Under the pieces are notes generated by a model. It was not told the origin of the DNA and did no database searches. It saw only the letters and a program-made list of their open reading frames with translations. A stretch of 64,000 bases of DNA from an uncultured Arenicella sp. (GTDB lineage Bacteria; Pseudomonadota; Gammaproteobacteria; Arenicellales; Arenicellaceae). Shown one piece after another: positions 7,469-64,000 of the stretch. Numbering within the stretch: position 1 is the stretch's first letter; each line of letters starts with the position of its first letter. Location of the stretch: positions 1 through 64,000 of the forward strand of contig CALJWL010000015.1 in NCBI GenBank assembly GCA_937974565.1, written 5' to 3'. The position numbers were made by a program, and so were the translations under genes.

Positions 7469-7918
7469 CTAATTCAAGTGAATGCCCAGCGCAGCCTTAT
7501 AAGACTTCCAGCTGATTGGAATGGCGTAAATTCGGCTGTGATCCGCTCGGGTTGGAGTATCGCAAGGCCGTCCTTTAGATATTGTCGGCGTTGAGATATT
7601 GAAGCCCTTACCAAGTTTCTGTCTCGCATTACCGGATAGAGTATTAGCCACTTCGCCTACGGTATCTGAAATCATTGATTCGGATGTGTCCGTTTCTCCA
7701 AATGAAAGAATGAGGTGGCGCACCAGCGCCGATGGGGCCGTGAAGTGACATGCGCCTTCATATGAGCCAGAAATGGCGATGCTGCCAGTGTAGTCACTGC
7801 TTATTTCATCAAGATCATTGATTAAATAAGGGCTGCCAACGAATACTGACGAGTCGTTGGTGTGGTGAAAATAATTGACGATGCCATCAATAAAAATTTT
7901 AAGTTGGTTTTCCATCAT
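7469..7918 (-). CDS. CheX-family chemotaxis phosphatase-like protein
   Basis: A 149-residue protein with the CheX/CheC-type fold. The segment around residues 80-100 (ESMISDTVGEVANTLSGN) matches the family's E-x2-N catalytic helix, which dephosphorylates CheY-like receivers. Two adjacent ATG codons form the start, with GAGG and AGAGAG just upstream. It is the last gene of a three-gene minus-strand unit with a CheY (55 bp upstream) and a sensor kinase. The likely job is to remove phosphate from that CheY. There is no signal peptide, so it is cytoplasmic. Confidence 0.8.
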   Translation of the reverse strand: MMENQLKIFIDGIVNYFHHTNDSSVFVGSPYLINDLDEISSDYTGSIAISGSYEGACHFTAPSALVRHLILSFGETDTSESMISDTVGEVANTLSGNARQKLGKGFNISTPTISKGRPCDTPTRADHSRIYAIPISWKSYKAALGIHLN

Positions 7919-7972
7919 ACTCTCTGCCTCGTGTTGCTTTGCATCATGCTTGTTAGGTTAATAACTTCGTTC

Positions 7973-8338
7973 TTAGTCTTCGATTACCATATCCATCAGC
8001 GCGATTCTCAAATCGTTTTCGTTGAATGGTTTGGTAATAAAACCCATCGCTCCTTCTTCCAACGCTTCCATGCCTGTGGCTTTATCATTTAAGGCCGAAA
8101 TAACCAAAATTTTTACAGTATCGTCTATTTCAACCAATTGTTTTATGCACTCAATGCCGTCCAGCATTGGCATGGTCAAGTCCATGGTTACAACGTCAGG
8201 GTTAAACTGCTTGAGCATGTCAACCGCTTCTTCGCCATTGGCCGCACTGCACACCACATCAAACAATTTTTGATCGCTCTGTCGCGCAATTTTATGCCTA
8301 ATAAGCTTGGAGTCATCCACAATCATTAGTCTATGCAC
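7973..8338 (-). CDS. CheY-like single-domain response regulator
   Basis: A stand-alone receiver domain of 121 aa. The acidic pair D8/D9, phospho-acceptor D53 (TMDLTMP), S81 and K103 (ITKPF) are all present, so it should be phosphorylated normally. There is no output domain, so it probably acts by protein contact. The frame is open back to a TTG at 8365, but AGGAG lies seven bases before the GTG at 8338, which decides the start. It sits between the kinase gene (46 bp upstream) and the CheX gene. The kinase is the likely phosphodonor and CheX the phosphatase. Confidence 0.85.
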   Translation of the reverse strand: MHRLMIVDDSKLIRHKIARQSDQKLFDVVCSAANGEEAVDMLKQFNPDVVTMDLTMPMLDGIECIKQLVEIDDTVKILVISALNDKATGMEALEEGAMGFITKPFNENDLRIALMDMVIED

Positions 8339-8384
8339 ATTTGCTCTCCTGTTGGTCATTGTCAATTGTTGTATTAATTAAGCT

Positions 8385-10454
8385 TCAAAAACGGACCGTG
8401 AAACGCGACCCCTCTTGCGATTTGGTTTGTAACGCTAACTTACCACCTAAGTCTTTTGTCAGATCGTTAATGACTTTCAAGCCCATGCCACGTCCGGCAT
8501 CTTGATCGGCAGAGGGTTTGCTCGACAGGCTGTTGTTGATTGTGAGGCTAAGAAGTTCGTTAGGCTTAAGCTGTGTGCGGTCTTTTTCTGAAACTAAGCC
8601 ATTAGCAAACGCTTTTTTGCGTAGAGTGTCAAAATCAAAGCCATTGCCATCGTCTTCGCAGACTAATTTATAGTCATGGTTGTTCTCTTCAAATAAAGCC
8701 AGCGTAATTTTGCCTTCTTCATTTTTACCGCGCATAACTCGTGTCGCTGGCTTTTCTATGCCGTGTGATAATGCATTGCGCAGCAACTGGCTGGCCATTG
8801 ATATAACATTCAGTCGTGTTGAGGAAGGCAGGTTGAGATTTTCCAAGCCAGCTAAACTTAGATAAACTTTCTTACCTTGCCTGGCCGCGATGGATTGCGC
8901 GAGTTCGGTGAGTGATGAATGTGTATCACTTGACTCGCTGTTGGGCGTAGCTTTGTCTATGGTCGGGGTATTGAGCGCATTGAATAACGAATCAATCTGC
9001 TCGTTCGTTGACATTAAACGCTCTAACATCACAGTAAGGCTAATAAAGTCGTCGCCAGATACTGAGGGTTTGTTTTGAAGGTGTTCAATTTCGTCTTCAA
9101 ATTCATGACAAAGGCTGCTGATGAAATTGAGCCCCATTGCGGCACTCTCCCCTTTTGTCTTATGAACCAACGCTAAGATCGATACGGCCTTCTTTTTGAA
9201 TGCAAGACTGGTGCGCGCTGGGTCTTTCAGAATGTTGTTGATTTTTTCATAGGTATGGCTGCTGCTCTTTAGAAAGTCGGGCAACAGTTCCCCGTCTGCG
9301 CTCAGTAATACTTTTATCATTTCAAACTGTTGTTCATTTCTGACCGTCTCGGCGGCTAGCTCTCGTTCCAGTTTGACTTCATTAGTGATGTCGGCCACCG
9401 AGGTTAAGATGCCAATAATTTTCCCATCTCGAGACACACGATTAAATGTGAAATTCAAGTACTTATTTTTAATCAGGCCACGCTCTTCAATTTGGATAGG
9501 CAATTTATTGAGAGGGTTAAGATCAACGAGGAGCCGCTGTTTTTTATGAGGGTCAAATAGTAGTTTCAAATATCGCTCTACCTTGGTCAAATCATCAACC
9601 GATAAAAGTGGAGCAATAAAATTTTTAAAATTACGCCCCGCATCAAGCTTGACGCCGAAAATAGACTCTAATGCTTTGGATTGTTGACGACCCATAGCGC
9701 CTTCTCGATCAATCAAAAACAACCCCTGACTCACCGTCTCGAAGATTTGATCAGTTTCTTGGCGCGCGCGCTGTCTGGCCAAGTCGGCTACTCGTAATTG
9801 GCCTAAAATCAAATACATAATAACCGTAAAGCAGATCAGGCTGGCAAGAATCCCAACGGTTTGAATCAAGCGAGATCGATCCGCCGCATCGTTTGCAATG
9901 CTCTCTGAATGATTGGTAAGGTCATTCATTAGACCGAGTAATGCGTTAATGTTTTGGTCGGCATAAGCGTGGGCCGTCGATAACAGTTGGCTATTTAACT
10001 CGTCGTTTTGCGCAGTGTTGGTTTCCTGTAACGATAATGATATCTCGCCAATGCTAGCGTTTAATGGTTGCCAGAGAACGAGGGCGTCTTCAATAGCCGC
10101 GATACCCGCTGACTCGGATACGGGCGGTAATCGAGTTAAGCCTGATTTGGTGCTTTGCGTTACACCTCCGTTTTTAAAAGCCAGCAGTGTGGTATTAAAA
10201 AGGTGAGCGGCATTTTCCAACTCCGTTAATTGTTGGGTGTATTTCCTTGAGTTTTGATAGCGCGAGTTTACATTGCTCAACGACTTTGCAATCCGTTGAG
10301 ACAACATGCGTTGCCGGCCAGCAATGTTAACAACCTCTGCATTCGCTTCAGTTTGAAACGACAGATAAAAATTTGTACCCAATACACCAATTACCAGTGC
10401 CAAAAAAATAATGGTGGTAATAATGATTGACGTATATCTACCCAAAAAGTTCAT
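8385..10454 (-). CDS. Membrane sensor kinase: PilJ-type sensor, PAS, HPt and CheA-like ATPase domain
   Basis: A 689-residue signalling protein. Helix 1 (about 7-29) and helix 2 (about 203-222) flank a periplasmic PilJ/NarX-type helical domain with the signature NIAGRQRMLSQRIAKSL (about 43-59). A PAS-like domain follows (about 235-370), then a helical region with LVHKTKGESAAMG that looks like an HPt phospho-acceptor, then an HATPase_c domain (about 535-689) with N-box LLRNALSHG, G1 DDGNGFD and G2 GRGMGLKVI. There is no HisKA helix pair and no CheW-like domain. The catalytic order recalls CheA, but the sensor is built in. GGGAGAAG precedes the ATG. It heads the cheY-cheX unit. The ligand is unknown. 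Confidence 0.82.
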   Translation of the reverse strand: MNFLGRYTSIIITTIIFLALVIGVLGTNFYLSFQTEANAEVVNIAGRQRMLSQRIAKSLSNVNSRYQNSRKYTQQLTELENAAHLFNTTLLAFKNGGVTQSTKSGLTRLPPVSESAGIAAIEDALVLWQPLNASIGEISLSLQETNTAQNDELNSQLLSTAHAYADQNINALLGLMNDLTNHSESIANDAADRSRLIQTVGILASLICFTVIMYLILGQLRVADLARQRARQETDQIFETVSQGLFLIDREGAMGRQQSKALESIFGVKLDAGRNFKNFIAPLLSVDDLTKVERYLKLLFDPHKKQRLLVDLNPLNKLPIQIEERGLIKNKYLNFTFNRVSRDGKIIGILTSVADITNEVKLERELAAETVRNEQQFEMIKVLLSADGELLPDFLKSSSHTYEKINNILKDPARTSLAFKKKAVSILALVHKTKGESAAMGLNFISSLCHEFEDEIEHLQNKPSVSGDDFISLTVMLERLMSTNEQIDSLFNALNTPTIDKATPNSESSDTHSSLTELAQSIAARQGKKVYLSLAGLENLNLPSSTRLNVISMASQLLRNALSHGIEKPATRVMRGKNEEGKITLALFEENNHDYKLVCEDDGNGFDFDTLRKKAFANGLVSEKDRTQLKPNELLSLTINNSLSSKPSADQDAGRGMGLKVINDLTKDLGGKLALQTKSQEGSRFTVRF

Positions 10455-26419: not shown

Positions 26420-27109
26420 ATGAGAAAATCTGTGTTGAATTGGATTGGTCGAGTCGTAGCGGTAGGCGCTATTGCTGCGACCGCTGCTACCACCGGGTGG
26501 GCGCAATCATCAGGCGGTCGGTCGGTTGATAGCGAGTTTGCGCGCGAATTGAAGCTGGTAGAAGCTTTAAAAGTGTATAACGCTCAACTGCAAGACCAGT
26601 TGACAGCGCAAGCAAAAGCCAACTCTGAAATTCAAGCGTCCATCGAGTCAGCTAAAGCTCTAGAGCCACAAGTTGCCCCGTTGTTGGAGAAAATGTTGAC
26701 GGCATTGGACAAATTTGTACAAGCAGATTTGCCGTTCAAGCTTGAAGAGCGTCAAGAGAGTATTGGTCGTCTGAAAGCCCTAATGTTAGACACCACCGCC
26801 ACCACATCGATCCGCTATCGCAGCATCATGGATATCTATGCTGCTGAAATGGAATATGGCACAACGTACGAAGCGTATGATTCGGTGATCAATGAGACGC
26901 CAGTCGATATGTTACGTGTGGGCCGAATTGGTTTGTTTTATCAAACTAAAGATCAGCAAACGTCCGCTATGTACGACAATGTCAATAAGTCGTGGAAAAT
27001 TTTGCCAGAAAGCACTAATCGCAATGTTCGTAAAGCCATTAAGGTGGCTGCGAAAACGGTAGCACCAGAACTGTTGAGCTTGATGACTAATGCTCCGGAG
27101 GGCTCGTAA
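26420..27109 (+). CDS. DUF3450 family protein, first copy
   Basis: A 229-residue exported protein: signal peptide (about 1-28, cleavage after GWA), then a long coiled coil (about 38-100) with the family's EKMLTALDKFVQADLPFKLE segment, then a small C-terminal domain (VGRIGLFYQTKD). DUF3450 genes regularly precede TtpC-type MotA/TolQ/ExbB genes in marine gammaproteobacteria. The family function is unknown; a periplasmic scaffold or partner of TtpC is likely. The TtpC start is two bases after this stop. It heads the operon after a 1-kb gap. Confidence 0.85.
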   Translation: MRKSVLNWIGRVVAVGAIAATAATTGWAQSSGGRSVDSEFARELKLVEALKVYNAQLQDQLTAQAKANSEIQASIESAKALEPQVAPLLEKMLTALDKFVQADLPFKLEERQESIGRLKALMLDTTATTSIRYRSIMDIYAAEMEYGTTYEAYDSVINETPVDMLRVGRIGLFYQTKDQQTSAMYDNVNKSWKILPESTNRNVRKAIKVAAKTVAPELLSLMTNAPEGS

Positions 27110-27110
27110 T

Positions 27111-28448
27111 ATGAAACGCTTACTATCCACTGTTGCGCTGGCCGCAGCATTCATTGTCGCTCCGGCGCACTCTCAATCAGTTGATCAATTGTTGAACCAA
27201 ATTAAAGACGGTTCATTTGCAAAGAGCGCTGAAGCAACCGCTTTGGAATCGCGTTTTGCCGGTGCTGGCGCAGGGAAAGTTAATTTGCTTCAGCAATTGC
27301 GCACACAGCGCGCGGCTTTAGAGGCAACCAGTAATGCACTGGAACAGCAATACGAAGCAAATGATCAGGCCCTAAATCAAGTTCGTACTGAACGCGCCAA
27401 CTCACTAGGCGATTTAAAAGACTTGTTTGGTGCTATCCAGCAAGTGGTTGGTGAAGCCCAAGCGACGTTTGACGGTTCTATTATCTCCGCACAATTCCCT
27501 GATCGCACTGACAGCTTTGATGAAATTTCAAAGAAAGTATCAAATCAATCAAACCAGTTAGTGACCGCAGGTGAGATAGAGTCACTATGGAAAGCGCTGT
27601 TCAACGAAATGGTTCAACAGGGTAAAGTGGCTAAGTTCAGCGCGTCTGTGGCAACAGCCGCGGGCGATCGCGAAGAGCAGCAAGTGGTTCGCGTTGGTAC
27701 TTTTAACCTAATTGGTGACGGCAAGTTCTTAACTTACGGTGCTGGTGGTGTTGCAGATTTGCCCAAACAGCCCGACGGTCGTTTCTTAAATCAAGCGTCG
27801 TCTCTGTTTAATGCAACTGGCCCAGTTGAGTTTGCAGTAGACCCAACATTGGGTACGTTGCTTGAAGCAGCCGTTGAAAGCCCAGGTTTACGTGATCGTG
27901 TGGCCCAAGGCGGTCTTGTTGGTTACATCATTCTAAGTGTGGGTGCTTTCGCTGCAATCATTGCAATCATTAAAATTATCATTCTGTTTGGTGTTTCAGC
28001 TGCGGTTAAAAAACAAGCGGCAAACCCAGGTTCGCCAAGTGATAAGAACCCGTTAGGTCGTGTGTTGAAAGCGGCAGCGGACACCAAAGGTAATGACAGC
28101 GAGGCTGTGGAATTGAGACTGTCTGAGGCGATCATGAAAGAAACGCCTAAGTTGACGTCTTGGTTGATGTTTTTGAAAATCGTATCGGTAGTCGCGCCAC
28201 TTGGCGGCCTATTAGGTACTGTGCTGGGTATGATTACCACGTTCCAATCGATCACGCTGTTCGGCGCTGGCGACCCAAGGCTAATGGCTGGTGGTATTTC
28301 AGAAGCGCTGGTAACAACGGTGTGTGGTTTGGTTGTCGCGATTCCAATCGTATTGCTTCACACGGCAGCGGCTTCTAAAGCCAAGCGCGTAGAAGAAATA
28401 CTGGAAGAGCAGTCAGCCGGTATGGTGGCACGTAAGATCGAGGGCTAA
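27111..28448 (+). CDS. TtpC-like MotA/TolQ/ExbB proton-channel protein, first copy
   Basis: A 445-residue inner-membrane protein of the TtpC type. A signal peptide (about 1-22) is followed by a periplasmic coiled coil, a helix near 270-295 (GYIILSVGAFAAIIAIIKII), and a MotA/TolQ/ExbB domain (about 340-435) with LLGTVLGMITTFQSITLFGAG. In Vibrio, TtpC is needed for the TonB2 system to energise siderophore receptors. The frame opens seven codons earlier, but GGAGGG is eight bases before the ATG at 27111. It is followed by a separate ExbB, the standard TonB2-cluster order. Confidence 0.87.
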   Translation: MKRLLSTVALAAAFIVAPAHSQSVDQLLNQIKDGSFAKSAEATALESRFAGAGAGKVNLLQQLRTQRAALEATSNALEQQYEANDQALNQVRTERANSLGDLKDLFGAIQQVVGEAQATFDGSIISAQFPDRTDSFDEISKKVSNQSNQLVTAGEIESLWKALFNEMVQQGKVAKFSASVATAAGDREEQQVVRVGTFNLIGDGKFLTYGAGGVADLPKQPDGRFLNQASSLFNATGPVEFAVDPTLGTLLEAAVESPGLRDRVAQGGLVGYIILSVGAFAAIIAIIKIIILFGVSAAVKKQAANPGSPSDKNPLGRVLKAAADTKGNDSEAVELRLSEAIMKETPKLTSWLMFLKIVSVVAPLGGLLGTVLGMITTFQSITLFGAGDPRLMAGGISEALVTTVCGLVVAIPIVLLHTAAASKAKRVEEILEEQSAGMVARKIEG

Positions 28449-28539
28449 ACGCTCTCGGTCTCTAAGTTCAGCTGAGGCGGGTCAATATTTAGACCTGGCC
28501 CGTCCTGGCTAATAACACGAGAGACAGAGGTTCAATAAG

Positions 28540-29064
28540 ATGGATATTAAAGCTATCTTCGAGTACATCCGCGATTTTATGGAGCTCGGTGGCCCGGTAC
28601 TCTATTTGATTGCCGCTTTGCTTATTATCATGTGGTACATGATTTTAGAGCGCATCATGTACATCAACGGCCCTCATAAAAAAGCAGTTAAAACTGCTTT
28701 GGATGAATGGGAATCGCGAAGCGAGCGTAGCTCATGGGCAGCGCATCAGGTTCGCGAGCAGTTGGTATCTAGGGTGAGTTCCAAGTTGCGTGAAAACCTA
28801 TCGATGATTCAAGCGTGTGTTGCCCTGGCGCCATTGTTTGGCTTACTAGGCACGGTGACCGGCATGATTGAGGTTTTCCAAGTTATGGCGGTGACTGGCA
28901 CCAGCAATGCTCGCGCGATGGCGGGTGGTGTGTCGCGTGCAACCGTTCCAACAATGGCCGGCATGGTCGCAGCATTATCGGGCTTGTTTTTGAGCTTTTG
29001 GCTGCAACGCAAAACTGAGCAGGAAAGGGAGCTAATCAACGAGCGCCTGACCTTAGATCACTAA
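28540..29064 (+). CDS. exbB: ExbB proton-channel subunit
   Basis: A 174-residue ExbB2-like protein with three membrane helices (about 16-36, 90-112, 130-155) and the family segments LAPLFGLLGTVTGMIEVF and TVPTMAGMVAALSGLF. With ExbD it forms the proton channel that drives TonB. The 91-bp gap after TtpC holds possible stems (CTCTCG/CGAGAG at 28452-28457 and 28518-28523, with GGTC/GACC inside), which may separate expression of the two genes. It is the only small ExbB in the window. Confidence 0.92.
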   Translation: MDIKAIFEYIRDFMELGGPVLYLIAALLIIMWYMILERIMYINGPHKKAVKTALDEWESRSERSSWAAHQVREQLVSRVSSKLRENLSMIQACVALAPLFGLLGTVTGMIEVFQVMAVTGTSNARAMAGGVSRATVPTMAGMVAALSGLFLSFWLQRKTEQERELINERLTLDH

Positions 29065-29181
29065 CGGGTCATTGATTGACGCTGAATCATTAACGAGATT
29101 TAAGTGTAATCAACGAGCATCCTTATTATTTTGGGTGTGAAGCATTAAATCGTGTTTCATGCCCAATTTAGGAGAAACTAA

Positions 29182-29586
29182 ATGAGACGAGCATCTAGAA
29201 GAAGACAAGAAGAAGACGCTAAGATCGATATTACGCCGATGTTGGACGTGGTCTTTATCATGCTTATATTCTTTATCGTCACCGCAAGCTTTATTAAAGA
29301 GAGTGGCGCTAAAGTTATTAAACCAGAAGCGGTCAATGCTGAACAACGACCTAAGGCGAGTATTTTGTTGGCAATCGACGAAAACAATGATATCTGGTTG
29401 GATCGCCAGCAAATTGACCCGCGCGCTATTAAGGCTAATTTGGGTCGCTTGCGGGCTGAAAACCCAGAAGGCGAGATAATGATACAGGCCGATATTAATT
29501 CCGAAGCCGAAGTGTTATTAGAAGTGGTTGACAAACTGCGTGACGCTGGCATTGAAGTGAGTCGCGTTTCCACCTTATCGGAGTAA
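29182..29586 (+). CDS. exbD: ExbD subunit, first copy
   Basis: A 134-residue ExbD: a short basic cytoplasmic tail, one membrane helix (about 21-42) with the essential Asp in ITPMLDVVFIMLIFF, and a periplasmic domain. AGGAG lies seven bases before the ATG. Its stop region provides the GGAG for tonB, which starts three bases after it. It pairs with ExbB to use the proton gradient. Confidence 0.93.
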   Translation: MRRASRRRQEEDAKIDITPMLDVVFIMLIFFIVTASFIKESGAKVIKPEAVNAEQRPKASILLAIDENNDIWLDRQQIDPRAIKANLGRLRAENPEGEIMIQADINSEAEVLLEVVDKLRDAGIEVSRVSTLSE

Positions 29587-29589
29587 ATT

Positions 29590-30192
29590 ATGGTTAGATT
29601 ATTTTCATCATTCATTGTCGCCATCTTCATTACGTTAGGTTTGATTGTTGCGATGTACGCACTTATCAAGATGGATGAACCAGAACTGGGTGAGGCGGAA
29701 GCCTTTAAGGTGCCCGAGTTCTCATTCATTCCCAAGAACGAAGACGTCGAAACTATTACCGCCAAACCTGATCGCCCAGATGAGGTTCAAGAAGCTCCTG
29801 ATATTCCAGAGAGTGACATTATTCCCGATGAAGTGGATATTGATACCAACTTATCTTTAGGTGCGGTAAAAATTGGCATTAATACCAGCACTAAAGGCTT
29901 CAATTCTAACGATGGCGAGTATCTGCCTATCTTCCGTGCCCCACCAATTTATCCACGACGTGCGCAAGAGCGTGGTCTGTGTGGTTGGGTTGAATTGTTG
30001 TATACCGTAACGGCGTCTGGCGGCACCAAAGACGCAGTTGTTACTTCTAGCTCGTCGCGAATTTTTGAGCGTGCGGCTGTAAAGGCGGCTGAAAAATACA
30101 AATATAAGCCACGCCAAGTGGGTGGTAAGCCCGTAGACGTACCTAATGTGCCAATCCGTATCAAATTTGAGATGGAAGGTGGCAAATGCTAG
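29590..30192 (+). CDS. tonB: TonB energy-transducing protein
   Basis: A 200-residue TonB of the short TonB2 type. A membrane helix (about 7-27) is followed by an acidic, Pro-rich spacer without long Pro-Lys repeats, and a C-terminal TonB domain (about 112-196; YPRRAQERGLCGWVELLYTV, YKYKPRQVGGKPV). It links the ExbB-ExbD channel to outer-membrane TonB-dependent receptors, such as the one at the end of the window. GGAG six bases before the ATG overlaps the exbD stop. Confidence 0.93.
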   Translation: MVRLFSSFIVAIFITLGLIVAMYALIKMDEPELGEAEAFKVPEFSFIPKNEDVETITAKPDRPDEVQEAPDIPESDIIPDEVDIDTNLSLGAVKIGINTSTKGFNSNDGEYLPIFRAPPIYPRRAQERGLCGWVELLYTVTASGGTKDAVVTSSSSRIFERAAVKAAEKYKYKPRQVGGKPVDVPNVPIRIKFEMEGGKC

Positions 30193-30210
30193 AGCTTTGT
30201 CGTGCAAGGT

Positions 30211-30234
30211 GCTTGTCTTTCTAAGACAAGCTTT
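30211..30234 (+). other. Strong hairpin between tonB and the TPR gene
   Basis: GCTTGTCTT (30211-30219) and AAGACAAGC (30223-30231) form a perfect 9-bp stem with a 3-base loop, followed by TTTAAG. The T-run is too short for a sure terminator, so it may be an attenuator or an mRNA-stabilising end that lowers expression of the TPR gene relative to tonB. Confidence 0.5.
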
Positions 30235-30300
30235 AAGCGCATCCAAGCAAAGGCTCATGCTATTAGGTTGAAATAATTAAGCTGAACATAGGTGAACAAT

Positions 30301-31671
30301 ATGACTGGTATTAATACAGTAAGTATCACGCAAGCAATCAGAACTGCTATCAAACCGCTGCTTATTACAGCGTTGGTGTTGCCATTCTCGGCAGGCTTAG
30401 AAGTGACGGTGTTTGAATCGCAAGTTGCTCAAGCACAGAGTGACGCGCCCAAGAAAAAAACGCGTCGTGTGGAATCGATTCGCGCGAAACACGTTAAAAC
30501 GTTTGAAAAGGTCAGCGAACTCTTTGATCAAGAAGACGTCGCTGGTGCTAAAGCCCAATTGGATAAGTTGGCCAGAGAAACCGACTTAAATAATATTGAA
30601 AGTGCTTATCTTTGGAACTTTCGAGGAAGTATCTGTTTGAATGAAGACAACCTCAATTGCGCTTTGCGTGAGTTCAAAAAGGTAGCCAACATTCAAGAGG
30701 GTATCTCAGAAGGTTTTCAAAACCAGATATTATACCAAGTTGCGCAGGTGCTTTTCTTACAAGAAAAATATCGTGAAGCTTTGCAGTACGCCCAACGTTG
30801 GTTTAAAACGCAAGAAGACCCGTCGGCGGATGCCTATATGTTGATTGGCCAAGCACACTATCAGCTTAAAGAGTTTGACAAGGCACTGCCTAATGTTCAA
30901 AAAGGCATTCAAAAGTACGAAGAACTCGGCAGTACGCCTAAAGAAGGTTGGCTTAATTTGTTAAGCAATATCTACCGCGAAAAAGGCCAATATAGAAACA
31001 TGTTGCCGGTGGTGAAGCAGTTGGTTAAGTTCTACCCTAAGAAAAATTACTTATTATCTTTGGGTTATATCTTTAATGAGTTAGAGGATCTTGACAGCAT
31101 GTCGGCTCTTTACCTTGGGATGTATGATCAAGGTTTATTAAAAAGCGAATCTGAGCTGAACACGGTTGCCTCATTGATGATGAATTTGGATAACCCATAT
31201 AAGGCCTCCAGGGTGATGGAAAAAGGTTTTAATGATGGGGTCTTCAAAAAGACATTAAAGAACTATCGCTCATATTCACAGGCGCTTTACGCTGCACGTG
31301 AATACGAGAAAGCGTTAGAGCCATTGTCTCAAGCTGCAAAGTTGTCTAAAGACGGTAAACTTGATGATCAACTTGGTCAGGCTTACATTAATTTGAATCA
31401 GTGGCGGAATGCTGAAACAGCACTGCAACGTGCTCTTAATAAAGGCAAGTTGCGTGATACAGGTCAAACTACCATTAGCCTTGGTTTGGTGCAGTTTGAG
31501 TTGAATCGCCCTGATGCTGCGTTGAAGACATTCAATAGAGCCTTGCGTTATGAAAAGGTTGCCCAAGCAGCCGATAATTGGATCAAATACGTCAAAGCTG
31601 AAGTGCAGCGTGAAGCTGAACTTAAAAAAGAAATTGTTATTAACACTGATGTCGAGCCTTTAGACGCATAG
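30301..31671 (+). CDS. Exported tetratricopeptide-repeat protein of the TonB cluster
   Basis: A 456-residue protein with a long signal peptide (cleavage after VAQA, about residue 45) and TPR-like helical repeats over about 60-440 (for example LIGQAHYQLKEFDKALP, YSQALYAAREYEKALEPLSQ, SLGLVQFELNRPDAALKTFN). TPR proteins are regular last members of the DUF3450-TtpC-ExbBD-TonB cluster (TtpB-like in Vibrio, from memory) and act in the periplasm, probably as assembly partners. A GTG at 30292 is in frame, but AGGTG six bases before the ATG at 30301 decides for the latter. Confidence 0.82.
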   Translation: MTGINTVSITQAIRTAIKPLLITALVLPFSAGLEVTVFESQVAQAQSDAPKKKTRRVESIRAKHVKTFEKVSELFDQEDVAGAKAQLDKLARETDLNNIESAYLWNFRGSICLNEDNLNCALREFKKVANIQEGISEGFQNQILYQVAQVLFLQEKYREALQYAQRWFKTQEDPSADAYMLIGQAHYQLKEFDKALPNVQKGIQKYEELGSTPKEGWLNLLSNIYREKGQYRNMLPVVKQLVKFYPKKNYLLSLGYIFNELEDLDSMSALYLGMYDQGLLKSESELNTVASLMMNLDNPYKASRVMEKGFNDGVFKKTLKNYRSYSQALYAAREYEKALEPLSQAAKLSKDGKLDDQLGQAYINLNQWRNAETALQRALNKGKLRDTGQTTISLGLVQFELNRPDAALKTFNRALRYEKVAQAADNWIKYVKAEVQREAELKKEIVINTDVEPLDA

Positions 31672-31756
31672 TTTAAAGTCTGGATTCAGCATCAAGTTAA
31701 CAGTAAATAGGCTTATTAAGCTGCGGCTTAGAGCATAATAGAATAAGAGGTTAAGT

Positions 31757-32551
31757 ATGAGTACATCAGTACTTAAGGCTAAATTAAGGGCTAGCGTGGT
31801 AGGTGCTGCGTTGGTTTCCTTAGTGCCATTAAGCGTGCCATTAAGCGCTTCGGCTGACCAGGTAGACGATATCGTTAAATCCGGTATTTCACGAGCAAAG
31901 TCTGCAGCGGCTTCACAAAAGCGCATCGATAAAATCTCAGAAGACACTGAAAAAGTGATCTCTAAGTATCATCAGCAACGCAAGAGTGTTGAAGTCCTTA
32001 AAAAGTTTAATGATAGGTTGCGCCGCACGCTACAAGCGCAAGAAGTGGCAATGACCTCATTAGAGCGATCAATTGAAGATGCGTCTTTGATTGAGCGTCA
32101 GATTGTTCCGCTAATGCTAAGAATGATCAGTGGTTTAGATCAGTTTATTGCGGCAGACATACCATTTAAGCTAGAAGAGCGTAAAGCTCGAGTCGATCGC
32201 ATTAAAGGGTATTTAACTAACGCAAATATTGCGGCAGCCGAACGCTTCAGGCAAGTTCTTGATGCCTATTCGATCGAAAGTAATTATGGAAAGACGATAG
32301 ACGTTTATTCCGAAGAATTAGACCTTGGTGGTAAAAAGCGAACCGTGAATGTGTTGCAGGTGGGTCGCGCTGGTTTGTATTATCAAACGATAGATGGCGC
32401 AGAGTCGGGTTATTGGGACAAGGGCGACAAACAATGGAAACAGCTTGATTCGTCTCATAACGAGGGAATCACTAAAGCCATTAAAATAAGCCAAGGTAAA
32501 GCATCCAAAGACCTTATGACCTTGCCAATTATCGCGCCGGAGAAAATTTAA
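31757..32551 (+). CDS. DUF3450 family protein, second copy
   Basis: A 264-residue paralogue of the DUF3450 protein at 26.4 kb. It has a signal peptide (about 1-34, cleavage after ASA), a coiled coil (about 50-115) and the same core: FIAADIPFKLEERKARVDRI here against FVQADLPFKLEERQESIGRL there, and VGRAGLYYQT against VGRIGLFYQT. The copies have diverged well beyond a recent duplication. AGAGG precedes the ATG by seven bases. The next gene starts two bases after the stop, as in copy one. The 85 bp before it could hold its own promoter. Confidence 0.83.
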   Translation: MSTSVLKAKLRASVVGAALVSLVPLSVPLSASADQVDDIVKSGISRAKSAAASQKRIDKISEDTEKVISKYHQQRKSVEVLKKFNDRLRRTLQAQEVAMTSLERSIEDASLIERQIVPLMLRMISGLDQFIAADIPFKLEERKARVDRIKGYLTNANIAAAERFRQVLDAYSIESNYGKTIDVYSEELDLGGKKRTVNVLQVGRAGLYYQTIDGAESGYWDKGDKQWKQLDSSHNEGITKAIKISQGKASKDLMTLPIIAPEKI

Positions 32552-32552
32552 T

Positions 32553-34004
32553 ATGAAACATCTATTAAAAATCGCCGCCGTTACGGGTGCATTGATGATT
32601 ACATCGTTGACCGTAACCACAAGCGTGACAGCTCAAACGTTGGATATTGATCAAGTTTTGAGTGCGGCCAGATCCGGTGCAACCAAAGACCGTAATGCCG
32701 AGCGTGCCCGTGAAAATAAATTTAGAGCCGAGCTTGGAAAAGAGCAAGGTCGCTTAAAGTCAATGACTAACGAGCGAGTTAGGCAAGAGCGCATTTCACG
32801 AGAACTGGAAGCTAAGTTTGATCAAAATGACGTTGAAATTGCTCAACTGCAAGAAGAGCTGCAAAAAGAACTGGGTGACCTGAAACAATTGTTTGGCGTG
32901 ATTCAGCTTTCTGCTTCAGAAGCACAAGAAGACTATAAAACGTCGATTATCAGTGCCCAGTACCCTGAACGCGCTGAAAATCTTCGCCAAATGGTCGAAA
33001 AAATGGCCAGTTTGACTGAGCTTGTGTCCATTGATGAAATTGAGGACTTGTGGCTTCAGTTGCAGAATGAAATGACAGAGCAAGGCAAAGTTGTTACCTA
33101 CAATACGAACGTTAATTACATTGTTGATTATGAACCACTGCTAGACGGAAACGGTAACCCGGTTACTGATGACAAAGGAAAGCCAACGGGAGAAACAAAA
33201 CCCGTGTATGAAGTGCGTGAGAAACCCGTCACTCGAGTTGGTGTGTTTAACGCCGTGACGGGCAACGATATCTTGACGTATTCAGACAATAAAGGTTTTG
33301 TGGCATTAGAACGACAAATGGGGTCAGATTTCACTCAAGCATCGCAAAGCCTGCAAAACTCAACGTCTGGCACTACGTCGTTTCAGCTTGACCCTGCTCG
33401 CGGTGGCTTATTGCAAGCATTGGTGTTAAAACCATCGCTTGATGAAAAAGCCGAAGAAGGTGGGATAGTTGGTTATGTGATTATGGTATTGGGTGCCATC
33501 GCCTTGTTGATTGCTGTGCTGCGCTTCTTGATTTTAATGGGCGTAGAGTCTTCTGTTAAAAAGCAAGCCCGTGATATGAAGCGCCCGTCGCTCAAGAACC
33601 CGCTAGGCCGTGTGCTGAAGGTTTATCAAGACAACCCTAAATCTGATCCAGAATCTCTTGAACTTAAGTTAGGGGAAGCCATGCTGAAAGAATCGCCTAA
33701 AATCAACAGTTGGGTGATGTTCATTAAGATTATTGCTGTTGTTGCCCCGTTACTTGGTTTATTAGGTACGGTAACCGGAATGATTCAAACCTTTCAGGCC
33801 ATCACCCTGTTTGGTGCCGGCGACCCACAAACGATGGCCGGCGGTATATCGCAAGCTTTGGTTACCACTGTGCTTGGTTTGGTTGTGGCAATTCCAACTG
33901 TGTTTGCTCACTGGTTGGTGTCTAACAAAGCCAAAAACATTGAAGGCATTTTGGAAGAGCAAGCGGCTGGCTTGATCGCTCAAAAGTACGAGGGCCAAGC
34001 GTAA
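32553..34004 (+). CDS. TtpC-like MotA/TolQ/ExbB protein, second copy
   Basis: A 483-residue paralogue of the TtpC at 27.1 kb. A signal peptide (about 1-27) is followed by a coiled coil, a periplasmic insert not seen in the first copy (about 190-220; DGNGNPVTDDKGKPTGETKP), a helix near 305-328 and the MotA/TolQ/ExbB domain (LLGTVTGMIQTFQAITLFGAG). The C-termini of the two copies match closely. It is followed not by ExbB but directly by ExbD, so this protein may itself be the channel partner of that ExbD. Confidence 0.85.
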   Translation: MKHLLKIAAVTGALMITSLTVTTSVTAQTLDIDQVLSAARSGATKDRNAERARENKFRAELGKEQGRLKSMTNERVRQERISRELEAKFDQNDVEIAQLQEELQKELGDLKQLFGVIQLSASEAQEDYKTSIISAQYPERAENLRQMVEKMASLTELVSIDEIEDLWLQLQNEMTEQGKVVTYNTNVNYIVDYEPLLDGNGNPVTDDKGKPTGETKPVYEVREKPVTRVGVFNAVTGNDILTYSDNKGFVALERQMGSDFTQASQSLQNSTSGTTSFQLDPARGGLLQALVLKPSLDEKAEEGGIVGYVIMVLGAIALLIAVLRFLILMGVESSVKKQARDMKRPSLKNPLGRVLKVYQDNPKSDPESLELKLGEAMLKESPKINSWVMFIKIIAVVAPLLGLLGTVTGMIQTFQAITLFGAGDPQTMAGGISQALVTTVLGLVVAIPTVFAHWLVSNKAKNIEGILEEQAAGLIAQKYEGQA

Positions 34005-34032
34005 GCTTGGTTCCCGAGATAGAGGATAAATA

Positions 34033-34443
34033 ATGAAAAGATTAGGCAAACAACATAACGAAGAAGAAGCCGATATTGACATCACCCCAATGCTGGATGT
34101 GGTGTTTATTATGTTGATTTTCTTCATTGTGACTGCAAGTTTTGTTAAAGAATCTGGCTTAGATTTGAATAAGCCACCAGTCACGGACACACCGCCTGAT
34201 GCAGACGCAGCAAGGCCGATCATTGTTGAAATTAACAATCTGAGTGAAATACGCATTGATAACCGTTTGTTAGATCAACGCGCTATTAAGTCTACTGTAA
34301 CGCGTTTGACGGCTGAAAGGCCTGACGCTGCGGTTATTATCAAAGCTGAGAAGAAAGCTAAAACGAAAGCAATCATTGCTGCAGTTGATGGCATTAAAGC
34401 GGCGGGTGTTAATTCGCCAACAATATCGCTGGCAAAAAACTAG
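34033..34443 (+). CDS. exbD: ExbD subunit, second copy
   Basis: A 136-residue ExbD paralogue. The cytoplasmic tail and helix are almost the same as in the first copy (DITPMLDVVFIMLIFFIVTASF, with the essential Asp), while the periplasmic part (KPPVTDTPPDADAARPIIVE) differs strongly. That divergence suggests another periplasmic partner. AGAGGAT lies shortly before the ATG. It ends the module: a terminator follows, and no ExbB or TonB gene accompanies it. Confidence 0.92.
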   Translation: MKRLGKQHNEEEADIDITPMLDVVFIMLIFFIVTASFVKESGLDLNKPPVTDTPPDADAARPIIVEINNLSEIRIDNRLLDQRAIKSTVTRLTAERPDAAVIIKAEKKAKTKAIIAAVDGIKAAGVNSPTISLAKN

Positions 34444-37630: not shown

Positions 37631-39376
37631 TTAATTCAGGCGAAATTGCACCTTAGTTGAAATGTTCTGGCTTTCAACTGGCAAGCCTGTGCGTTGGTTT
37701 CTTGCTGGTGAGAAACGCCATTTCTTCACAGATTTAATCGCGGCATCGTTAAACGTATCACCAGGTTCTGAATCCAACACTTCGATATCAAATGGAATTC
37801 CTTCTTTGTTGATTGAGAACCTCACCTGCACCCAACCTTCGGTGCTATTTTTTAAGGCACGGCTTGGGTAACGTGGTGAGGCACGAGAAATGATTTTAGC
37901 CGGAATGATTTTGGGTGGTTCAGGCTTGCTAGTTTCAACTTTGGCCACTTCCTCAAGGGGAGCTGGTTTTGACTCTTCCTCTTTTTCCTTAGATGCTTCG
38001 GCAATCGCGGCACGTTTGCTCTGAATGCCTTTGTTTAATTTATCTAGAGCGTCGTTGCCATCTGTAAGATTAATACGTTTAACCAGCGCCGAAAGTTTAA
38101 CCGCTTCTTCAAGGTTGTCGTCATTCAGATTGGTGTTAGCCAAAGCCAAGAGCTTATTACTTAATAGTTTAACTCGAGGGTCCGAGTTTGCGCGACTGAT
38201 TTTATTACCTTTAAGAGCCGATGATACTAATTGGTAAGCGTTGCCTTTCTTTGGTGGCGTTAAATTACCAGCGGCAATAGCGCTGTCGATACTATCCAGC
38301 AACGCCTTTTCGGCTTGCAATGCTTTGCTTGCGCTGTTGTCGCCACCCAGATCGCCTAGCCGCTCTAATACAGTCGATGTCGCGGCGATCTCTTCTTGCG
38401 TTCCTGTTTCACGTACTTTTTTAACGTGACTGTCCACGGCTTTGGCTAACTCCTGACTTAATTGGTCATTTTCAAGATTCAGCGGTTCAATTTGACGTAA
38501 TGCGTCTATTGCGTTCAACGCTTGATCGAACTTGGCTTCTGACACCAGTGTCCTATAATTGCTGCGAATAGCCGCGGCTACGGTCTTTTTACCTTCATAA
38601 GCCACAGAGTCGTAAGGGTCGATCTGTAATGATTGGTTGTAATACTCCAGTGCATTGTCCCCTTTAGGCTGAATGTAACGTCCATCTAGAATCGCGTTTG
38701 AGGCTAGTTGGTTAAGCTCGTTGGTTCGACTTACCGCTTCGTTAATTTCTTGCGTGACTTCTTGCTCAATATTCAGAGAGTTGTCTACCACGACCTGTTG
38801 TTTGGGAGCCTCATCGCCACCTAAAAACAAGAAGGCGATTAAACCTAATACTACAACAGCTAAGCCGGCGTATATCGCGGGGTTGGTTTTACGTTGCGCG
38901 GCCAGTTGTTCCAAATTGGCTCGGTTTTCTGCTGGGCCAACGATCATGATGTCTTCGCCAGCTTTTTGCTTGCCTACCAATTCTTCATGCAAAGATAAGG
39001 CTGATTTGAATGCCAAAAATACTTGATTGCCGCCAACGGGTTTATTAAATGCTCGATAGACAATAGGCTGAATGTTTGATTTCAGAATTTCAGAAAGCGG
39101 GTCCTTTTCGCCTACCAGCATCAAAACTTGGGTAGGGTCCGTTTTTTTTAAACTGATTGCCTGGTCAATGGCCTTTTCTACGTCATTGCCATTGGTATCG
39201 CAATCTAAGATAACAATGGCGTTGTCATCAAGTAAGTCCGGTTGCTTGAGAACTTCGTCAACCGTTTCGCGGGCGTTTATTTTTAGGTCCGTTGAGTTGC
39301 CATTAATAATAGCTTCAACAACATTTGAATCATCTGAAATAAGTAATACAGATGGGGCGGGAGCCTGTTCCGACAT
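37631..39376 (-). CDS. Receiver domain-TonB fusion protein
   Basis: A 581-residue protein with an unusual order. Residues 1-135 form a response-regulator receiver with D15/D16, phospho-acceptor D58 (VILDCDTNG) and K112 (FNKPV); the usual Thr/Ser is replaced near V88-G89. One membrane helix lies at about 167-187, followed by a helical, tetratricopeptide-like region (about 205-470) with an Ala/Lys/Glu-rich stretch and a KPEPPKIIPAK Pro segment, and a TonB C-terminal domain (about 500-581; SPRYPSRALKNSTEGWVQV, KKWRFSPARNQRTGLPV). The receiver would be cytoplasmic and the TonB domain periplasmic, giving a protein that could couple phosphorylation to TonB action. GGAGG precedes the ATG. It stands alone between terminators and terC. 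Confidence 0.85.
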   Translation of the reverse strand: MSEQAPAPSVLLISDDSNVVEAIINGNSTDLKINARETVDEVLKQPDLLDDNAIVILDCDTNGNDVEKAIDQAISLKKTDPTQVLMLVGEKDPLSEILKSNIQPIVYRAFNKPVGGNQVFLAFKSALSLHEELVGKQKAGEDIMIVGPAENRANLEQLAAQRKTNPAIYAGLAVVVLGLIAFLFLGGDEAPKQQVVVDNSLNIEQEVTQEINEAVSRTNELNQLASNAILDGRYIQPKGDNALEYYNQSLQIDPYDSVAYEGKKTVAAAIRSNYRTLVSEAKFDQALNAIDALRQIEPLNLENDQLSQELAKAVDSHVKKVRETGTQEEIAATSTVLERLGDLGGDNSASKALQAEKALLDSIDSAIAAGNLTPPKKGNAYQLVSSALKGNKISRANSDPRVKLLSNKLLALANTNLNDDNLEEAVKLSALVKRINLTDGNDALDKLNKGIQSKRAAIAEASKEKEEESKPAPLEEVAKVETSKPEPPKIIPAKIISRASPRYPSRALKNSTEGWVQVRFSINKEGIPFDIEVLDSEPGDTFNDAAIKSVKKWRFSPARNQRTGLPVESQNISTKVQFRLN

Positions 39377-39499: not shown

Positions 39500-40288
39500 C
39501 TAGTGCTTCTTAAGGTTAGCTTGCTTCATTTGGTTCAGTTTTTTCTGGTATCGGCTTTGCACAATATCACTCACGATAAGTACGGCTAACACGAAGTAGA
39601 ATGTGGTTTTAGACATTTGCACCACTTCATTGCCAAACAGCGTCATATGAGAAAGGTGTCCGCCCTCGGAAACCAGCATGACTCCTACTAGGAATAATAT
39701 GAATAAGCCCATCACTTCGTACATGCGGTTTTTCTGAAGAAATTCAGAAACTGTGTCAGCCAACACAACCATGAGAACACCGCCAATGATGATGGCCGTG
39801 GCCATTGTATAAAAGACTTTGGTTACGGCCATGGCGCTAAGAATAGAATCAAACGAAAACACAACGTTCATTGCCACAATCCAGAAAATAATACGGCCTA
39901 TTGGCTTAGCATCGCGCTGCTGTGCGTGCGACTCTTCTAATGTCATCATGTGCAAAATTTCTTTCATTGCGGTATAGAGTATAAAGGCCCCACCGAACAG
40001 CACAATAATGGCGTGCAGATTAAAGGTGGCATGAATCACACCTTCCCAGTGAATCGCAAACAATTGCTCTTGAAAGGCCTCTATCATTTTGAGCAATAAA
40101 AACAACAACACAATGCGGAAGACCACCGCTAATACAATGCCCCAAAAACGGACTTGTTTTTGTTTGCTCTCAGGAGCGCGTTGACTCTCTAGGGAGATGT
40201 ATAATAAGTTATCGAAGCCAAGTACCGCTTGCAAAGCGATCAGCAACGTTAAATCAATAAGATTCGCGATAGTGAAAAATTCAGCCAT
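39500..40288 (-). CDS. TerC-family integral membrane protein
   Basis: A 262-residue TerC/YkoY-type membrane protein with about seven helices. The two family acidic motifs are visible: GFDN near 24-27 and SFDSI near 148. TerC proteins are linked to tellurite resistance and, in recent work, to manganese or calcium export associated with exoenzyme metalation. This is a single copy without other ter genes, so a metal-ion role is more likely than tellurite resistance. It is followed by the receiver-TonB gene's upstream region, with no operon partner. Confidence 0.87.
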   Translation of the reverse strand: MAEFFTIANLIDLTLLIALQAVLGFDNLLYISLESQRAPESKQKQVRFWGIVLAVVFRIVLLFLLLKMIEAFQEQLFAIHWEGVIHATFNLHAIIVLFGGAFILYTAMKEILHMMTLEESHAQQRDAKPIGRIIFWIVAMNVVFSFDSILSAMAVTKVFYTMATAIIIGGVLMVVLADTVSEFLQKNRMYEVMGLFILFLVGVMLVSEGGHLSHMTLFGNEVVQMSKTTFYFVLAVLIVSDIVQSRYQKKLNQMKQANLKKH

Positions 40289-61749: not shown

Positions 61750-64000
61750 ATGAAGAGTTGTAATTATGGGGTGTTAAAAATTCCATTGATAACTGGGTTG
61801 ACGGTTATTGCAACATCAGTAAGTGGTCATGCTTTTGGACAGGAGAACTCAGAGGCAACCGAGCTAGAGGAAGTGATTGTTACCGGTGTGTTTAAAGCAT
61901 CGGGAAGGCAGGGGGCAACCGTAGCGGTTACGGGAATAAGTGAAGAGGAATTAGAGGAAAAGGTGGCATTCAGCGCGGCTGATATTTTAAAAGATGTTCC
62001 TGGCGTATTCGTCAATCCGGCCTTGGGAGAAATTCGTAACATTGTTTACACGCGCGGGATTTCAGCAAACTCACTGGATGGAAATAACGGCTATTTTTAC
62101 GTTTCACTGCAAGAAGATGGGTTGCCAGTTCAGAATGCAATTCTGACAAACTTTGGCCCTGATTACTTCTCTCGCCCAGATTTAATGACTCGACGAGTGG
62201 AAGCTTTACGAGGCGGATCTGCTGCGATTACAGGGCCGAATGCACCAGGCGGAACATTCAACTACCTAAGTAAAACTGGCCTGTCTAACCCTGGTACTGA
62301 GGTCAGTGTTCGTGTTGGCTCTGAAGGTGGCGAATTTGGCAACCCCTATTATCGGGCGGATTTTTTCCATGGCGGTTCTTTTAATGATAATTTACATTAC
62401 GGAATTGGTGGCTTTTATCGTGACGGAACCGGTTCTAGAGACCCTGGCTACTCAACAAACCGGGGCGGGCAACTTCGTGCTAACCTCATATTTGAATATG
62501 AGGCCGGTAGTGTTCAAGCTAATGTAAAGCTGTTGAATGATCACAATATCTGGGATGAGTTCACGCCGGTATCGGGTTTTAGTGATGCGCGCCCAATAGG
62601 CGCATTTGATTTTGATAGCTCTGTCAATCCACCTAGAGTGCCACATTGTTTTCCGTCGATTGCCGGAGGTGGCTCAGGCGGTTATCAACAAGGGCGCTTA
62701 ACGGATGAAGATTGCTGGGACCCTGCCGATGGCGTTCATAGCACATCCGAAGTATTGAGCCTCACCTGGGATCATGAATTTGCTGACGGGTGGTCCATCA
62801 ATAATAAGTTTAAATACTCTCAAAATGAGGCGGATTGGAATTCCGGAGCCGCCATTTTTTCTATGTCACTGGATGTGCCAGGCATTTATGGCCCAGCCCC
62901 GTTTGGTAATGGTATTTTGGCCGTTGGTGTAACCGACCCAAGTCAGCCGTTTGGCTTTGACCCATTTGAAGGGGTGATTTCATTTAGAGACAGCGAAACA
63001 GGCAGCCTTCTTGCTCAAGTGAATTCGGACGGCAATGGCGGTTACAGTGTGCTTAATTCAAGCTTGCCTGACGCTCCAGAGTTAGAGAACGCCGTTTTGA
63101 TTCAAACCGCGTTTGCACCAGAAACGGGTTCAGATGAAATCATTAACCAGTTCACGGTCAGTAAAGAACTCGACAATATGACGTTTAACCTGGGTGCCTT
63201 TTACTCTACTTCTGAACTTTTTTGGCGCAGTGGTGAAGGTGGTACAGGCTTAAGCCAATTTACACCAAATCGAGAAATATTAGATATTTCTATCGAGCGT
63301 GCGGACGGCAGAATTCAACAAGTAACAAGCCCGGATGGTTTTGCCGGAGCTGGGCGTGTGGGCGCATTTCAAAACTTTGCCAGCTACGCAGAACAAGATC
63401 AGTTTTCAGTGTTTTTTGGCCACGATTGGCAGATCAATGACAGGCTGAGTCTTGATTGGGGAGCCCGGTATGAAAAAATAGAAGTGGAGGGGTTAAATCA
63501 AGTTGCGAGCCAATTCACCGATACATCAGGTGGGCTTGATGGTAATCCAGACACGTTATTTGATAATACTATCCAAGAGCTGGGTGCGCCTGTTCGATAC
63601 AGCAGAGATTTTGATTATACGGCATTTTCGGCGGCGCTTGGCTATGAATGGAATGATCGTCATACGACGTATATTCGCATCGCGAATGGTGAGAAAGCGC
63701 CTAGTGTTGCAGCGTTTGTAGATCCTGGTGCTGGCGTTAACGACGGCCAATACATCCCTCAGACTGTTCGACAATTTGAAATTGGTCATACAATTTCAGG
63801 TCAATTCTACGATATAACAATAACGCCGTTTCTGAGTGAGCTGGAGAATATTGGTGGCTTTGGGTCACCCGTGCAGTTTACTGATATTGATGGAACGACC
63901 TATGTGCGAGAATCGTTGTTGTCTTCACAAGAAACGTTTGGTGTAGAATTGGAAGCAAGTATCGATGTATCAGATCGCTTCAATGTTCGATTTTCTGGCA
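61750..64000 (+). CDS. TonB-dependent outer-membrane receptor (3' end outside the window)
   Basis: At least 750 codons without a stop up to the window edge. A signal peptide (about 1-30), TonB box EEVIVTG (40-46), plug domain (about 50-165; SAADILKDVPGVFVNP, then RVEALRGGSAAITGPNAPGG) and the start of the beta-barrel are present. Its place after rhaI and its operator copy suggest uptake of rhamnose-containing oligosaccharides across the outer membrane, energised by a TonB such as the one at 29.6 kb. AAGGAGG six bases before the ATG is a very strong ribosome site. Confidence 0.92.
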   Translation, partial: MKSCNYGVLKIPLITGLTVIATSVSGHAFGQENSEATELEEVIVTGVFKASGRQGATVAVTGISEEELEEKVAFSAADILKDVPGVFVNPALGEIRNIVYTRGISANSLDGNNGYFYVSLQEDGLPVQNAILTNFGPDYFSRPDLMTRRVEALRGGSAAITGPNAPGGTFNYLSKTGLSNPGTEVSVRVGSEGGEFGNPYYRADFFHGGSFNDNLHYGIGGFYRDGTGSRDPGYSTNRGGQLRANLIFEYEAGSVQANVKLLNDHNIWDEFTPVSGFSDARPIGAFDFDSSVNPPRVPHCFPSIAGGGSGGYQQGRLTDEDCWDPADGVHSTSEVLSLTWDHEFADGWSINNKFKYSQNEADWNSGAAIFSMSLDVPGIYGPAPFGNGILAVGVTDPSQPFGFDPFEGVISFRDSETGSLLAQVNSDGNGGYSVLNSSLPDAPELENAVLIQTAFAPETGSDEIINQFTVSKELDNMTFNLGAFYSTSELFWRSGEGGTGLSQFTPNREILDISIERADGRIQQVTSPDGFAGAGRVGAFQNFASYAEQDQFSVFFGHDWQINDRLSLDWGARYEKIEVEGLNQVASQFTDTSGGLDGNPDTLFDNTIQELGAPVRYSRDFDYTAFSAALGYEWNDRHTTYIRIANGEKAPSVAAFVDPGAGVNDGQYIPQTVRQFEIGHTISGQFYDITITPFLSELENIGGFGSPVQFTDIDGTTYVRESLLSSQETFGVELEASIDVSDRFNVRFSG

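Follow-up and report, generated by a model that had tools for sequence, protein, structure and literature searches.

Within the window, by which we mean the whole 64,000-nucleotide stretch of DNA analysed here, a gene on the minus strand encodes a protein in which a receiver-like domain, a membrane helix, a tetratricopeptide-like (TPR-like) region and a TonB C-terminal domain (TonB_C) follow one another. The gene, the parts of its product and the neighbouring genes considered below are located as follows:

37631-39376, minus strand: fusion gene (product P0001, 581 aa), encoding pseudo-receiver, transmembrane helix (TM), TPR-like region and TonB_C
38987-39376, minus strand: receiver-like domain, residues 1-130 (D15, D16, D58, V88, K112)
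38819-38881, minus strand: single transmembrane helix, residues 166-186, predicted N-in from hydropathy and charge (helix of the structural model, 166-184)
38021-38794, minus strand: predicted periplasmic helical TPR-like region, residues 195-452 (weak TPR matches and predicted helices)
37901-38020, minus strand: Glu/Lys/Pro-rich linker, residues 453-492
37637-37879, minus strand: TonB C-terminal domain, residues 500-580 (Pfam and fold matches)
39500-40288, minus strand: TerC-family membrane protein gene, just upstream, a conserved neighbour in the genus
26420-34443, plus strand: two gene sets, candidate energisers (DUF3450, TtpC-like ExbB, ExbB, ExbD, TonB, TPR; then DUF3450, ExbB-like, ExbD)
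7469-10454, minus strand: kinase (PilJ_N-Hpt-HATPase, 8385-10454), CheY (7973-8365) and CheX (7469-7918), homologous to a module found in family f29

A sequence-only reading had placed a 581-residue open reading frame at 37631-39376; the frame is intact over 581 codons and lies on the minus strand, an orientation left unstated there, and the four residues that had been singled out (D15, D16, D58 and K112) occur at the positions given. The claim of a C-terminal TonB domain is borne out unambiguously by Pfam TonB_C, which matches residues 500-580 above its cut-off (E 3e-15), and the membrane helix coincides with the one hydrophobic segment found by hydropathy, at about residues 166-186. Basic residues are richer before this segment and acidic residues richer after it, and the predicted topology is that of a single helix with a cytoplasmic N-terminus. 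The proposed periplasmic TPR-like region stands in part: real TPR matches and predicted helices fall within it, although the matches are weak (E about 0.02).

The N-terminal domain had been described as a receiver, and this is upheld at the level of fold by the predicted order of elements, by Foldseek and by a profile match, but is qualified by the lack of any match between the window protein and Pfam Response_reg (PF00072) at the gathering score and by valine (V88) at the conserved Thr/Ser position. PF00072 was matched weakly by two of 19 relatives (E 0.017), and a family profile built from 17 relatives found the solved receiver 3kcn (E 6e-7). The full-length AlphaFold model, made from three sequences, has a mean pLDDT of 54 and a pTM of 0.27, and a receiver-only model was poorer; because of this low confidence the model was used only for the order of elements and for domain folds. 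It predicts a (beta-alpha)5 order in which strand 1 ends at D15/D16, strand 3 at D58 and strand 5 at K112. Foldseek searches with it retrieved the receiver 2qsj (TM-score 0.68 by target) and, for the other end of the protein, the TonB C-terminal domain 2grx (TM-score 0.73), with 1u07 and 7zc8 also matching. Response_reg and TonB_C both exceed their Pfam cut-offs within one chain in two proteins of family f172. Tandem-receiver proteins of about 320 aa are widespread, and their second, degenerate receiver is close to the fused one, for which it is a possible origin; examples are L157:1497-2498, L123:1204-2142 and L119:1118-2209.

The order of receiver, TM, TPR-like region and TonB_C is confirmed as real in the window protein. 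The window comes from a marine bacterium of a gammaproteobacterial genus, one MAG of which bears the name Arenicella. Orthologs at 43-73% identity occur in 16 of the 17 other genomes of the genus, the search having found none in the remaining one, a fragmented assembly; this conservation, together with recurrence in other families, rules out chance or artefact as the source of the fusion. Two of the orthologs are incomplete: that of G005 is split by a contig end, and that of G003 is apparently interrupted, with receiver, TM and TPR in one frame and TonB_C in another (L035:9511-10833 and G003:C15:139295-139555), which may be either real or an assembly error. Within the order, the fusion is confined to the window's genus and one sister genus; within the class, it recurs in at least three other gammaproteobacterial families (f29, f172 and f143), as shown by profile searches across genomes. 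Family-wide searches thus ruled out an oddity restricted to Arenicella. Strong profile matches were obtained in 50 of 80 f29 genomes and in 56 of 81 f172 genomes, many of the latter covering the C-terminal part only, and 60 loci drawn from these two families yielded 54 proteins with both receiver and TonB_C. The f172 versions (850-1130 aa; L238-L257) carry two receivers in tandem.

A working receiver is defined by five residues (DD, D, T/S and K), and a homologue that lacks at least one of them is termed a pseudo-receiver (Bourret et al. 2025, PMC12632262); the same review points out that phosphorylation can survive substitutions at DD, T or K. With D15, D16, D58 and K112 present and V88 replacing T/S, the window domain has an incomplete quintet, and most orthologs lack the first acid as well; on residue content it is therefore a pseudo-receiver by the published definition, one that keeps the phosphorylatable Asp. 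Among the 16 orthologs D16 and D58 are invariant and K112 is lost once, in the interrupted G003 copy, whereas nine have Ala or Ser for the first acid (the D15 position) and 14 have Val for the Thr. Across 79 fusion receivers D58 is kept in 78, D16 in 75 and K112 in 64, but the first acid in only 13 and Ser/Thr in nine, and D58 ranks highest in conservation among 112 columns. The D58 pocket most likely matters in the fusion protein.

Two accounts of that pocket are addressed directly by these residues. In one, a histidine or Hpt kinase would phosphorylate D58 and so directly switch ExbB/ExbD-powered TonB transport on or off. The presence of D16, D58 and K112 in every full-length ortholog is in its favour; against it, the quintet is complete in only three of the 79 receivers, and through most of f172 the first acid is replaced by a basic residue, mostly Lys or Arg, which argues against ordinary Mg2+ binding and whose side chain may, judging from the residues, take the place of the metal and pair with D58. 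We regard such a switch as improbable. In the other, the domain would be a phosphorylation-independent docking or localisation platform, with the TonB domain constitutive or structural. Precedents exist in the receiver of FrzS, which lacks the Asp and localises its protein to the pole (PMC1974792), and in pseudo-receivers that work through protein-protein contacts (PMC12632262). Most members have lost the Thr and the first acid, which fits such a platform, as does the G303 member, which has lost both D58 and K112 and retains the same architecture; near-invariance of D58 and D16, and a linkage to the CheX phosphatase in relatives, would be unexpected for a pure scaffold. We consider this account doubtful, if one to be reckoned with.

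That linkage is found in family f29, where at seven loci (L125, L198, L199, L203, L209, L213 and L220) a kinase (Hpt-HATPase) gene, cheY, cheX and the fusion gene follow one another in that order and in the same orientation, with about 0-77 bp separating cheX from the fusion gene except in G333, where the two overlap slightly. The module lies on the other side of the fusion gene at four more loci (L201, L210, L211 and L219), and at L229 a truncated kinase is nearby; in all, about 12 f29 loci show the adjacency, approximately one third of those examined. In each of the 11 f29 genomes concerned the CheX gene is single-copy and sits at the fusion locus, a count that shows specificity and not frequency because the genomes were chosen for adjacency. 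S-D/D/T/K occurs at the active site of fusions next to these modules, a combination that favours the account in which D58 is phosphorylated.

At six f29 loci a Ser/Thr kinase gene lies just downstream of the fusion gene, mostly with a 4-base overlap. This arrangement would suit a flow of information in the opposite direction, from a periplasmic TPR/TonB arm that monitors the outer membrane or the occupancy of receptors, through the receiver-like domain, to a cytoplasmic kinase or CheY network. The membrane helix and TPR stretch also resemble those of Ser/Thr-kinase-TM-TPR proteins (family profile E about 1e-17), in which the periplasmic part is presumably the input. TPR similarity is, however, easily shared, and the direction of flow is conjectural; we think sensing from outside to inside very unlikely.

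Family f172 presents another context: across 21 loci, the fusion gene is directly behind thrS in nearly all, and no signalling gene recurs beside it. The window gene too has thrS within 3 kb, perhaps reflecting ancestral synteny. In the genus genomes inspected the order is constant, with the TtpC/ExbB/ExbD/TonB cluster, gap, gpi and the fusion gene followed by terC, pyrC and thrS. The second exb set (31757-34443), which has neither its own TonB nor a second ExbB, adjoins the complete TonB2 cluster. Linkage to the exb/TonB cluster was set aside as functional evidence, being weak: gapA and gpi always intervene, and the sister genus (G019) does not show this linkage.

No kinase or receptor gene is adjacent to the fusion gene in the window. 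The kinase-CheY-CheX module at 7469-10454 is related to that of f29 (kinase 27-34%, CheY 52% and CheX 38-40% identity) and lies 27 kb from the fusion gene. This proximity is weak evidence, to be taken as a lead, because the genome has three paralogous modules (the others at L259:7200-9981 and L260:3973-7107) and because the linkage is not kept in G004, where fusion gene and module are on different contigs; a partnership between the window module and the fusion protein is conjectural.

A second clade of fusions within the window's genus provides a further signalling context. It was recognised in a tree of fusion proteins which, having long branches, was used only to define this paralogue clade. 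In G004 and G012 its genes lie beside an ETR1_N-PAS-HisKA-HATPase kinase and a FixJ-like regulator. The G004 cluster (L146:7410-15303, G004:C2) comprises the ETR1-like kinase, the FixJ-like regulator, a stand-alone receiver-like protein, the fusion and a TonB-dependent receptor whose gene is 45 bp downstream of the fusion gene (G004_B); the paralogue of G012 (G012_B) has the full quintet, and its gene is divergent from that of the sensor kinase. Both arrangements lend support to a phosphorylation switch acting on transport. The ETR1_N kinase occurs in exactly three genomes of the genus, those with a full-length paralogue. The paralogue of the window's own genome (L117:3545-4537, G000:C18) belongs to the same clade; it comprises a receiver, a membrane helix and a TPR region and lacks the TonB domain.

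On the TonB side, a histidine in an SHLS motif of the membrane helix is described for TonB and TolA (PMC12204202), and the D-box, or motor box, of TonB binds ExbD (PMC10907165). SHLS is absent from the helix of the window protein, the histidine is lacking in 75 of 79 members, and there is no evident ExbD-binding D-box, all of which would count against switching of an ExbB/ExbD-powered transporter. The SHLS comparison is nevertheless undiscriminating, because the two TonB proteins inspected in this genome lack the histidine too; arguments against TonB function drawn from SHLS and from the Pro-rich linker were accordingly dropped. By eye, the window protein and its close relatives, unlike distant ones, have a Val-rich segment (QVVVDN) after the helix. 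TonB domains normally grip nutrient transporters. Seven TonB_C loci and 22 TonB-dependent receptors were counted in the genome; a TonB-dependent receptor gene begins near the end of the window and runs off it (62692-64000).

The earlier proposal that phosphorylation could control TonB-driven transport directly is thereby divided. Its link to signalling is supported by the operons of relatives, the conservation of D58 and the paralogue context, whereas the degenerate site and the want of an adjoining kinase weaken the case for a classical phospho-switch. As the best explanation of the whole we tentatively favour, at somewhat less than an even chance, a signal-linked TonB-family trans-envelope protein acting through the D58 pocket. 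In the topology, partner, target and direction of signalling that we infer, the protein would be anchored by one inner-membrane helix, and its cytoplasmic receiver-derived domain would tie it to a signalling pathway, the source being a chemosensory-type kinase system (Hpt kinase, CheY and CheX) or a sensor kinase. The D58 pocket would take up the signal through partner binding or slow, non-classical phosphorylation; this may reposition the periplasmic TPR arm or modify its activity, and the TonB domain borne by the arm would contact outer-membrane proteins, most likely TonB-dependent receptors. Conservation and recurrence of the architecture, near-invariance of D58, the f29 operons, the paralogue context in the genus, the 22 receptors and the fold matches support this explanation; it is weakened by the absence of a kinase or receptor gene beside the window gene, by the degenerate site, by the thrS context in f172 and by G303.

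Gene expression and receptor signalling are the main known controls of TonB-dependent uptake. A receiver within a TonB protein would, if true, let cytoplasmic signals reach the outer membrane directly, by a post-translational route, and nutrient uptake or an envelope function may be under direct signalling control. The broader proposition, that these proteins form a new class of response regulator with a TonB-type arm as output, through which chemosensory or two-component phosphorelays govern TonB-dependent transport or the mechanics of the outer membrane by direct protein-level control that bypasses transcription, seems to us unlikely. The family could also show what an Asp-retaining pseudo-receiver does, a question called a "mystery" in a recent review, since a CheX phosphatase and an Hpt kinase are encoded next to some members.

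Several known systems offer points of comparison. Like TonB and TonB2, the fusion protein has a single inner-membrane helix, a periplasmic spacer and a C-terminal TonB domain with the conserved YP, EG and WRF.P features; unlike them, it adds a cytoplasmic receiver-like domain, replaces the Pro-rich spacer by a helical, TPR-like one of 260 residues, lacks the SHLS histidine and is encoded outside any exbBD operon. It departs from atypical response regulators such as FrzS by almost always keeping D58 and by its kind of output: where those use DNA binding, an enzyme or a cytoplasmic coil, the fusion protein has a TonB domain that is tethered to the membrane and lies in the periplasm. Chemosensory CheA-CheY-CheX modules with non-chemotaxis outputs are approached by the modules that adjoin f29 fusion genes; here the kinases have PilJ-like or unassigned N-termini and only Hpt and HATPase domains, the suggested output is of TonB type, and the window fusion gene is not adjacent to its module. 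Ser/Thr-kinase-TM-TPR proteins share the membrane helix and periplasmic TPR segment, but their cytoplasmic part is a kinase and the TonB domain is absent. No described receiver-TonB fusion was found in the open-access papers searched. The protein is a new variant that unites a TonB protein with a pseudo-receiver, each of a kind already known.
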